A stretch of 38,284 bases of DNA, taken from Clostridia bacterium (GTDB lineage: Bacteria > Bacillota > Clostridia > UMGS1840). A program made the translations under genes and the position numbers. The stretch lies in contig JAGAKI010000014.1 in assembly GCA_017625695.1 (NCBI GenBank), positions 1-38,284 of the forward strand, given 5' to 3'. Positions 6,902-30,789 of this stretch are shown here, piece after piece (the stretch's first letter is position 1; each line of letters opens with the position of its first letter). The notes under the pieces were generated by a model. It was given only the letters and a program-made list of their open reading frames with translations. It did not search any database and had not been told where the DNA came from.

Positions 6902-6975
6902 GGCGCCATAGCCAAGTGGTAAGGCAGCGGTCTGCAACACCTTGATCCCCAGTTCAAATCTGGGTGGCGCCTCCA
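6902..6975 (+). tRNA. tRNA-Cys (GCA)
   Basis: Acceptor GGCGCCA/TGGCGCC, anticodon loop CTGCAAC giving GCA, GTTCAAATC T-loop and encoded CCA. The anticodon stem reads GCGGT against ACCTT, so only three of five pairs are Watson-Crick, with one C-T mismatch and one G-T pair. Confidence 0.9.
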
Positions 6976-7013
6976 TGAAAAAAGCGTACTGAAATTTTCA
7001 GTACGCTTTTTTC
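6976..7013 (+). terminator. Terminator of the first tRNA operon
   Basis: GCGTACTGAAA / TTTTCAGTACGC stem with A and T runs on either side, directly after tRNA-Cys. The hairpin array starts three bases after its T tract. Confidence 0.85.
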
Positions 7014-7014
7014 A

Positions 7015-7095
7015 GCTAAATTCGCTAACGCGAGCTAAATGTGCTAACGCACGCTAAATTACTTCGTAGCTAAATTGACTTATCGTCAGCTAAAA
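7015..7095 (+). repeat. Mini-hairpin array, GCTAAAT linker
   Basis: Five GCTAAAT or GCTAAAA linkers (7015, 7034, 7053, 7069, 7089) alternate with four short hairpins of unlike sequence: TCGC-TAAC-GCGA, GTGC-TAAC-GCAC, TAC-TTC-GTA and TGAC-TTATC-GTCA. On the complementary strand every loop starts with G and ends with A (GTTA, GTTA, GAA, GATAA) and is closed by a C-G pair. The same four hairpins in the same order occur at 30598-30671. I know no named family with this design. Confidence 0.85.
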
Positions 7096-7117
7096 GCGAA
7101 TTAAATTTAGCTGTTTA

Positions 7118-7180
7118 AAAAAACAATTTAGCTATTGCGGAGCAATAATTTCGCTTTGCACGAATGTGCAAAATTTAGCT
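7118..7180 (+). repeat. Mini-hairpin array continuing in inverted orientation (ATTTAGC linker)
   Basis: The linker now reads ATTTAGC or ATTTCGC on the plus strand, the reverse complement of the preceding part. The hairpins are TATTGC-GGA-GCAATA (about 7133-7147) and TTTGCAC-GAAT-GTGCAAA (about 7155-7172). An 89-codon-like reading frame through here and the next array reflects the repeats and has no ribosome-binding site. Confidence 0.75.
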
Positions 7181-7214
7181 TAAATGACTTGCATCTAAAC
7201 CATTCGGCTCTTCC

Positions 7215-7257
7215 AGAAAAAAAGACATTTTTCGACAGTGAAAAATGTCTTTTTTTC
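7215..7257. terminator. Strong bidirectional hairpin AAAAAGACATTTTTC type
   Basis: Arms AAAAAAGACATTTTTC and GAAAAATGTCTTTTTT around a short loop. Nearly the same hairpin ends the second tRNA operon at 30671-30713. Here no gene directly precedes it. Another hairpin array follows its T tract. Confidence 0.8.
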
Positions 7258-7260
7258 AAC

Positions 7261-7432
7261 GATATAAATCCCTGACGGAATTTGTGATATACCTTCGGTG
7301 CGATATATCCTGACGGATGCGATATGTAGCCTTGTGGCAACGAGATTTATATCATATCGCAACGAAACGAAGTGAAGTTATATCGAATTTGCGAAGCAAA
7401 TATATCGAACGAGCGTGAGCGAGTATATCGCC
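7261..7432 (+). repeat. Mini-hairpin array, GATATA / ATATCG linker
   Basis: First part: GATATA-type linkers separate ATCC-CTGAC-GGA(AT), ACC-TTC-GGT, ATCC-TGAC-GGAT and GCC-TTGT-GGC. Second part: ATATCG linkers separate an AAC...GTT hairpin with an AC-GAA-GT tip, ATTTGC-GAA-GCAAAT and ACGAGC-GTGA-GCGAGT. The last pairs only if G-A and A-G mismatches are allowed. GCGAAGC at 7391-7397 is a known unusually stable DNA mini-hairpin. Same architecture as the GCTAAAT array with a different linker word. Confidence 0.75.
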
Positions 7433-7460
7433 ATTAAAATAAAAATATCCTTATAGTTTG

Positions 7461-7540
7461 GATTTCACAGAAAATGATAGTTTTCTATTCCAAAATTTCT
7501 GCAAGAAATTATTTCACATCAACGAAGTTGATATTTCACT
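7461..7540 (+). repeat. Mini-hairpin array, ATTTCAC linker
   Basis: ATTTCAC linkers (about 7462, 7511, 7533) separate AGAAAA-TGATAG-TTTTCT, AATTTC-TGCAA-GAAATT and ATCAAC-GAA-GTTGAT. On the minus strand it begins about 14 bases after the T tract of the terminator at 7553-7590. The word ATTTCAC also occurs once inside the array at 30598-30671. Confidence 0.7.
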
Positions 7541-23551: not shown

Positions 23552-23840
23552 AAAAACAAAAACGCCCTCTGCAATCCCGTTTCAGGATACAGAGGACGAA
23601 AATATCATTTCCGTGGTACCACCTCAGTTCGCCGCTATCTCACGGTAGCGACCTTATCAGGTACTGACATACCTTAGTTCTGTGACGGGAACTCCCGTTG
23701 CCTCCTACTGAAGATTTCTCTCGTTCAGTGCACTGCTAACAGAAGGAATTCGAGAAGGACGCCCCCATTGCCTCGCACCCACCGGCAACTCTCTCCAGGT
23801 TCTTTCCAACCTACTGGTTTCTGATCTTCGCATTTGTTAG
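23552..23840 (-). ncRNA. T-box leader, likely Phe-specific (TTC specifier)
   Basis: Minus-strand leader before paaK. The conserved T-box sequence AGGTGGTACCACGG lies at 23611-23624 and a terminator stem CGTCCTCTG...CAGAGGGCG with a T-rich tract at 23552-23598. Stem I closes with CTAACA / TGTTAG and GAAG / CTTC, and an AGTAG motif sits on the 5' side of the specifier loop. The 3' side of that loop reads GAATTC, giving TTC (23746-23748) as the best specifier codon, Phe. The bulge TGGT matches a tRNA ending ACCA, as the tRNA-Phe at 6670 does. Uncharged tRNA-Phe would stabilise the antiterminator and turn on paaK. The specifier choice is inferred from alignment by eye. Confidence 0.9.
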
Positions 23841-30294: not shown

Positions 30295-30597
30295 GAGGGA
30301 AGCATAGCCGATTTGATTGATATTTAATACCTATTTAAAAAATAATGAAAGGAACTGTAAAGTGAACTGCTTCCATCTTCCTTATTACCTATTCCCTTCC
30401 CGAAATCCGTACAACAAAAAATTTTTAGGAAAAATTGAAGAGGGAATCGGCAAAACATAAAAATCCGCACACATTCATGTACGGATTTTCGGAAGAGACT
30501 AATGATTGAGATACCAATGTTTTTAGCTGAATTTTGCAACAAGTTACAAAACAAATTTATCTCACCTCATAGTAGCTATATGAAATTCACCGTTAGC
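30295..30597. other. Intergenic stretch between the MATE promoter and the hairpin array
   Basis: No gene I can support; the one frame here lacks a ribosome-binding site and runs through repeats. It contains a stem AAATCCG / CGGATTT with an extra ACA/TGT pair block (30459-30489) followed by a T run on the minus strand. This could stop read-through from the tRNA side. Confidence 0.5.
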
Positions 30598-30671
30598 TGA
30601 CCGAAGGTCAATTTAGCTACGAAGTAATTTAGCGTGCTTGAGCACATTTCACTTGCGTTAGCAAATTTATC
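30598..30671 (-). repeat. Mini-hairpin array, homologous to 7015-7095
   Basis: Plus-strand reading: TGACC-GAA-GGTCA, ATTTAGC, TAC-GAA-GTA, ATTTAGC, GTGC-TTGA-GCAC, ATTTCAC, TTGC-GTTA-GCAA, ATTTATC. Hairpin order equals that of the first array read in reverse complement. The fourth stem is TTGC/GCAA here and TCGC/GCGA there, a paired change that keeps base pairing. The first gains an inner C-G pair. It starts three bases after the T tract of the second tRNA operon's terminator, in the same orientation relative to the tRNAs. Confidence 0.85.
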
Positions 30672-30713
30672 TGAAAAAAAGACATTTTTCTTTATCGAAA
30701 AATGTCTTTTTTC
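30671..30713. terminator. Terminator of the second tRNA operon
   Basis: AAAAAAAGACATTTTTC / GAAAAATGTCTTTTTT, directly after tRNA-Lys on the minus strand. Nearly identical stem to the one at 7215-7257, with a different loop. Confidence 0.88.
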
Positions 30714-30789
30714 TGGTGAGCCATCGGCGATTCGAACGCCGGACAACTTGATTAAAAGTCAAGTGCTCTACCGACTGAGCTAATGGCCC
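30714..30789 (-). tRNA. tRNA-Lys (TTT)
   Basis: Acceptor GGGCCAT/ATGGCTC, anticodon loop CTTTTAA giving TTT, GTTCGAATC T-loop, encoded CCA. Last gene of the operon. Confidence 0.95.

Follow-up and report, generated by a model that had tools for sequence, protein, structure and literature searches.

The array of small hairpins behind the tRNA-Cys gene of the DNA analysed here (38,284 nucleotides, contig JAGAKI010000014.1 of a Clostridia bacterium, the whole of which we call the window) is, judging from sequence comparison, probably one of many non-autonomous copies of a mobile element family coupled to IVP, a four-helix-bundle protein whose gene these copies lack. The comparisons document dispersion of the copies, presence or absence at orthologous sites, a plan common to families of unrelated sequence, linkage to IVP and a linker type that tracks the IVP tree, and it is from this distribution that we infer movement of the elements.

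The initial annotation had described four hairpins at 7015-7095 and again at 30598-30671, and the same hairpins do occur in the same order at both places, with the TCGC/GCGA to TTGC/GCAA stem change between them, and both arrays begin directly after the T-tract of a tRNA-operon terminator (tRNA-Cys and tRNA-Lys) in identical orientation relative to the tRNAs. The 7-nt linker that it took to be constant is so at 7015, but in the second copy two GCTAAAT linkers have become GATAAAT and GTGAAAT. When the sequence was read onward to the right, the four hairpins proved to be only the left half of an element of approximately 200 nt (Table 1), in which a terminator is followed by four GCTAAAT linkers alternating with hairpins, a closure, and four inverted linkers with three hairpins (array 7015-7179), giving eight linkers and seven hairpins in a 4+3 plan. 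Within the closure, the letters GCGAATT complement the last part of linker 1 and the adjoining 5' arm of h1. Near-identical copies of the h0 terminator are found at many other places in relatives (query positions 435-473). Elements with other linkers are present at both tRNA loci of the window; the CGATAT element has IVP-bearing relatives (loci L157 and L166), and the closure of the D-type element, GTACGGATTTC, matches its own terminator arm GAAAATCCGTAC. The initial annotation did not include the right half, these other linker families or the associated protein gene described below.

Table 1. Features of the elements at the tRNA-Cys and tRNA-Lys loci, in window positions.
Feature	Position	Strand	Basis or remark
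tRNA-Cys, its 3' CCA the putative insertion point	6902..6975	+	ARAGORN; orthologous sites compared
Terminator hairpin with T-tract (h0), probably left edge of element	6977..7012	+	sequence; orthologous-site comparison
Left half	7015..7095	+	sequence, pattern search, covariation
Left-half linkers GCTAAAT	7015, 7034, 7053, 7069	+	GCTAAAA also at 7089
Left-half hairpins	h1 7022-7033, h2 7041-7052, h3 7060-7068, h4 7076-7088	+	
Closure GCGAATTAA	7096..7104	+	sequence; plan recurs in other linker families
Right half	7105..7179	+	sequence, covariation
Right-half inverted linkers	ATTTAGC at 7105, 7126, 7173; ATTTCGC at 7148	+	
Right-half hairpins	h5 7112-7125, h6 7133-7147, h7 7155-7172	+	
Right end ..TTGCATCTAAACCATTCGGCTCTTCCA, last letters CCA	7180..7215	+	conserved among copies at tRNA sites
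Second element, linker CGATAT/ATATCG, IVP-less	7216..7462	+	4+3 plan complete
Parts of second element	terminator 7216-7256, array 7260-7432, right end up to 7462	+	
Third element type, fragment (right half), linker ATTTCAC/GTGAAAT	7463..7539	+	comparison, including L162
tRNA-Lys	30714-30789	-	ARAGORN
Second GCTAAAT element, partly decayed	30491..30713	-	between tRNA CCA and D-type element, by comparison with G002, G003
Parts of second GCTAAAT element	terminator 30713-30672, array 30671-30526, right end 30525-30491	-	
AT-rich D-type element, runs like TTCCCTCTTCA, GGGAATAGGTAATAAGG	30367..30490	-	

BLAST found 16 places in the window's genome that match in full or in part, and a search of the genome for linker-hairpin-linker patterns gave 51 matches, against none for the reversed pattern. 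A search of Clostridia genomes gave 71 array stretches, and 75 distinct non-redundant copies were collected from the window's genome and mostly from related gut Clostridia MAGs, many of the loci being in metagenome-assembled genomes. Counting from searches and retrieved stretches, seven copies in the window's own genome lie behind a tRNA and its terminator, which carries the association with terminators beyond the two loci where it was first noticed. The remaining copies, about half, lie upstream of a gene, directly after either a TTGACA -35 box or a promoter -10 box (TAGAAT/TATAAT with a palindrome), which leaves the original proposal that selection acts on placement at a 3' transcript end unsupported. 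Right ends differ with the class of site, being ..TTGCCA at tRNA sites versus ..GATTCTATAAT at -10 sites, and repeat CCA or TATAAT; a base-exact pair of empty and filled sites with a clear target duplication was not obtained. The copies examined are intergenic, behind tRNA genes or promoters, with none inside a 23S rRNA gene, and the genes downstream of them are unrelated. In L168, L176 and L177 elements are chained, with a GCTAAAT right end leading directly into a palindrome and a CGATAT-type array, which is the arrangement seen in the window at 7216-7432 behind the first element.

Several further observations concern the form of the arrays. The MAG RGIG8738 (JAGASR010000034; L112, L134, L067, L069) carries free-form arrays with GCTAAAT linkers, whose hairpins, up to nine or more, follow no fixed order, and several of these arrays adjoin similar terminator-like hairpins (AGAGCAGAT..ATCTGCTCT). 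In promoter-site copies (L044, L045, L079, L083 and others) a palindrome (for example AGATTTAACaaaGTTAAATCT or GAATTCAACaaaGTTGAATTC) overlaps the stretch directly after the -10 box, and stays symmetrical while varying in sequence, as though the target had supplied one of its arms. A search of the window against Rfam gave T-box and tRNA matches only (the T-box leader, RF00230, at 23589-23837 on the minus strand with 101.6 bits) and no array family, and no array was found in viral contigs. A CRISPR array was rejected as the situation is the reverse of one, with short, non-palindromic 7-nt linkers and palindromic segments between them.

Comparison of the same tRNA 3' ends in sister species showed different occupancy. 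The end of the orthologous tRNA-Cys gene is empty in genomes G004 and G001. In G003 it is occupied by an AT-rich D-type element, in G002 by a CGATAT element, in G006 by GTGAAAT and then CGATAT elements, and in G007 by a D-type element together with an IVP gene between two identical terminators, compared to the GCTAAAT, CGATAT and ATTTCAC types found there in the window. The tRNA-Lys end is empty in G004 and holds D-type elements in G002 and G003 and a GTGAAAT type in G007. In the window a D-type element is separated from the CCA by the GCTAAAT element, which looks like a recent arrival on top of an earlier one. Because the same two 3' ends are empty or differently occupied in sister species, the elements appear to be insertions, and because the terminators differ along with the elements at the same tRNA, the terminator probably travels with the element. 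At one promoter site, upstream of a LUD gene, the array is absent in G002 and G003, and the upstream regions there are too diverged for a junction to be seen.

Covariation in the stems, from which the initial annotation had proposed selection on paired structure, is strong. Across 57 aligned copies, 94.1% of the cells in stems are paired and 16 of 29 pairs are changed on both sides (h4 was excluded from the covariation count as type-B copies misalign there), with 265 double-change cells observed compared to 89 +/- 11 in shuffles, none of 500 of which reached 265; sliding the partners lowered pairing to 31-50%. Compensation is almost always from one Watson-Crick pair to another (1527 Watson-Crick cells versus 15 G.T and 12 A.C), and there was no excess of G.U over A.C in the stems (binomial p 0.70). 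As G.U would be favoured in RNA and the two mismatches are equally rare, selection on a single RNA strand, as the initial annotation had implied, is unsupported, and the symmetry instead fits pairing in DNA, on both strands, or an exchange of entire hairpins, as with h2, which reads GTGC..GCAC in one set of copies and TGAAC..GTTCA in another. In the h6 hairpins of the GCTAAAT family (L091, L042; TATGGAGCGAAGCGGAATA, TATCGAACGGAGTGAGATA) an inner GCGAAGC-like mini-hairpin is kept, and purine-rich internal loops with possible tandem G.A pairs stand in place of full pairing. Minimum-energy folds of several copies include pairing of the first forward with the last inverted linker (F1:R4) and vary in their inner pairing; a ladder of four-way junctions made by linker-linker pairing was rejected for this variation and as the common R3 variant ATTTCGC is uncompensated in the forward linkers.

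Complete GCTAAAT copies have a gene beginning MAESIMLDKAKDFAVEII within about 40 nt downstream, and its product belongs to the 23S_rRNA_IVP/S23 four-helix-bundle family (PF05635, E 1.7e-28, 99.4 bits against a cut-off of 33.8; TIGR02436, E 3.5e-33, 114.1 bits against a cut-off of 24), the closest solved structures being 2rld (E 2.3e-31) and 2gsc. All ten IVP genes found in array loci have the array directly upstream. An intact matching IVP was present in 5 of 10 genomes with GCTAAAT arrays (at least three hairpin-forming matches, chosen by eye) compared to 0 of 50 genomes without them; G004 and G015, the latter incomplete, have arrays and no matching IVP. IVP-less and IVP-bearing copies have the array in common and, at tRNA sites, a similar right end. 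The genes directly behind the IVP gene (L137-L139, L146) are short and differ between copies, like a variable cargo slot. IVP was not confirmed in any viral contig; two unannotated gut 'phage' scaffolds (L327 and L328; MT835815.1 and MT835590.1) carry array and IVP, in L327 directly behind a tRNA-Arg-like gene and terminator. Separately, a weak IVP/Avd match adjoins a reverse transcriptase at G000:C7:4283-5765 and at G004:C19:19023-20505, which is probably a diversity-generating retroelement.

IVP genes of other clades have upstream arrays with other linkers (TCGATAT, GTGATAT, ATGATAT, GTGAAAT, GTGAAG, TGATGTT, CATGAAT and GATGAAATC), all of these families following the 4+3 plan with a closure complementary to the element start. 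In a survey of 196 Clostridia genomes plus retrieved loci, yielding 97 distinct IVP genes, 41 had an array, scored when the 300 nt upstream contained the same heptamer at least three times forward and at least three times inverted, compared to 0 of 291 shuffles, 2 of 95 IVP downstream flanks and 0 of 116 other ORFs of the same loci, and 26 of the 97 lie no more than 350 nt downstream of a same-strand tRNA. On the IVP tree there were 19 changes of linker label against a mean of 55 when shuffled, with the linker classes of 12 rows and the D class set by eye, and near-copies inflate such clustering. The array is missing from all 20 IVP rows of the 'VWQKAH' clade, and elsewhere the linker follows the clade. 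Complementarity between the closure and the tRNA terminator of its own locus averaged 11.75 nt at 12 D-type loci, versus 6.84 nt when terminators of other loci were used.

Heptamers accompany IVP genes in other phyla also. Tandem heptamers frame the IVP gene on plasmids of Nostoc, Aulosira, Dolichospermum, Euhalothece, Bernardetia and Treponema, mostly in forward orientation upstream and inverted orientation downstream, as in (GTAATTC)n - IVP - (GAATTAC)n or (TAGTGAT)n - IVP - ATCACTA. Of 20 IVP flanks, 12 matched themselves by 80% or more at lag 7 and none did so at another lag, compared to lag-7 repeats in 0 of 113 control gene flanks. In the Coxiella IVS, tandem GACAGAT heptamers precede the S23p ORF (PMC4990558). 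Apart from their hairpins the clostridial arrays are no different, being tandem heptamers with a forward block opposite an inverted one.

We propose that a complete element would consist of a terminator or palindrome at the left edge, forward 7-nt linkers, a closure, inverted linkers, the IVP gene and a short right end, with seven hairpins separating the linkers in the GCTAAAT family, and that it would insert directly after a tRNA CCA, bringing its own terminator along, or directly after promoter boxes. With the hairpins extruded, the heptamers could stack as a tandem array, forward block against inverted block, which an IVP ring might recognise as the end of the element (IVP relatives form a pentameric ring; PMC4990558, citing a Xanthomonas structure). 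IVP from a complete copy would also act in trans on IVP-less copies, and the catalytic step may use host enzymes; among those tested, no transposase, recombinase or reverse transcriptase was common to the host genomes. The dispersed copies are short, non-coding and multi-copy and probably derive from a longer coding element whose ends they share, in which they resemble MITEs.

The main rival to this IVP-coupled mobile element is that IVP is an RNA-binding regulator, the array being its autoregulatory 5' leader and the other copies target sites in other transcripts. The array does abut the IVP start codon (approximately 14-40 nt) in the GCTAAAT and CGATAT types, and many copies have a promoter before them and a gene behind, but in the ATGATAT, GTGAAAT, GATGAAATC and D types an apparent -10 box stands between array and IVP start, which would put the array outside the leader. 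As the tRNA copies lie behind a terminator, the downstream genes are unrelated, the stems have no G.U excess and the sites differ among sister species, we consider regulation through a leader unlikely. The structured RNA acting at the 3' transcript ends of tRNA operons that was first suggested would account for stem covariation and adjacency to terminators, and we now give it hardly any credence, since about half of the copies in the window's own genome lie behind promoters, orthologous tRNA operons do without the array and the stems again lack the G.U excess.

Movement by other known enzymes was weighed against an IVP-coupled element in the same way. REP/REPIN-like palindromes moved in trans by a Y1 (IS200/RAYT-like) transposase would likewise leave inverted pairs of hairpin repeats, a few full copies of which include a coding gene, and Y1_Tnp matches were found in 10 of 11 genomes; against this, the gene framed by the repeats is IVP (PF05635) and not Y1, no Y1 match turned up in G006, which is 98% complete and carries IVPs and arrays of several types, and the matches in other hosts are mostly weak or partial, making such a transposase a very unlikely agent. 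A retroelement, in which a reverse transcriptase copies the array RNA and IVP serves as an Avd-like accessory, would draw on the homology of IVP to Avd of diversity-generating retroelements (PMC10053308) and on the reverse transcriptase beside a weak IVP/Avd match on contig C7 of the window's genome, and is highly improbable given that the array-rich genomes G006, G007, G015, G025 and G050 have no RVT_1 match. Mobility mediated by reverse transcriptase was rejected on the absence of RVT_1 from 9 of 11 host genomes.

More tentatively, the wider set may represent a new class of transposable element spanning several phyla, in which IVP/S23 rings would recognise ends of forward and inverted heptamers, each clade its own heptamer, and move the elements without a known transposase, so that one system would unite clostridial arrays, cyanobacterial STRRs, TAACTGA repeats and rRNA IVSs as relatives. 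To our knowledge, decades after IVP/S23 proteins were first described from rRNA intervening sequences, and with their ring structures solved, no function has been assigned to them. In the open-access papers searched we found nothing that connects IVP/S23 in general with heptamers or hairpin arrays. If each IVP clade is tied to its own heptamer, the role of IVP/S23 becomes open to a binding experiment, which would make it the first testable one, and 'orphan' repeats so far without a protein partner (the cyanobacterial heptamers, TAACTGA repeats and clostridial hairpin arrays) possibly have a common origin. Insertions behind tRNA operons may also alter termination there.

Several known systems resemble these elements in part. 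STRR heptamers are known from heterocystous cyanobacteria, and GTAATTC-type repeats flank IVP genes in Nostoc. STRR and TAACTGA repeats are likewise intergenic, tandem 7-nt repeats scattered across phyla, but without hairpins between the units, and the paper on the TAACTGA repeats (PMC4679880) names no IVP partner. The accessory protein Avd has a homologous four-helix-bundle fold (PMC10053308), but works with a reverse transcriptase and template repeat, and most of the present hosts lack a reverse transcriptase. Repetitive hairpin-forming elements of sponge mitochondria, as summarised in the abstract of their description (PMC2800124), are also invading hairpins of scattered distribution, but that abstract mentions neither a constant linker nor a protein gene. 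The 23S rRNA IVSs of Leptospira and Coxiella are sporadic selfish elements, some of them carrying an ORF for a member of the IVP family, and their ends form hairpins; they lie inside rRNA genes and are excised by RNase III, whereas the present elements lie behind tRNA genes or promoters and have the 4+3 hairpin plan. REPIN-RAYT systems comprise many short palindromic elements arranged as inverted pairs, and the rare copy that is coding has these repeats on either side; the RAYT is a Y1 HUH nuclease. Inverted pairs of palindromic repeats in many dispersed copies were likewise found here, but the gene encodes a four-helix bundle without a known catalytic site and the element has eight linkers and seven hairpins, so that the window copies would be IVP-less derivatives loosely like REPINs.
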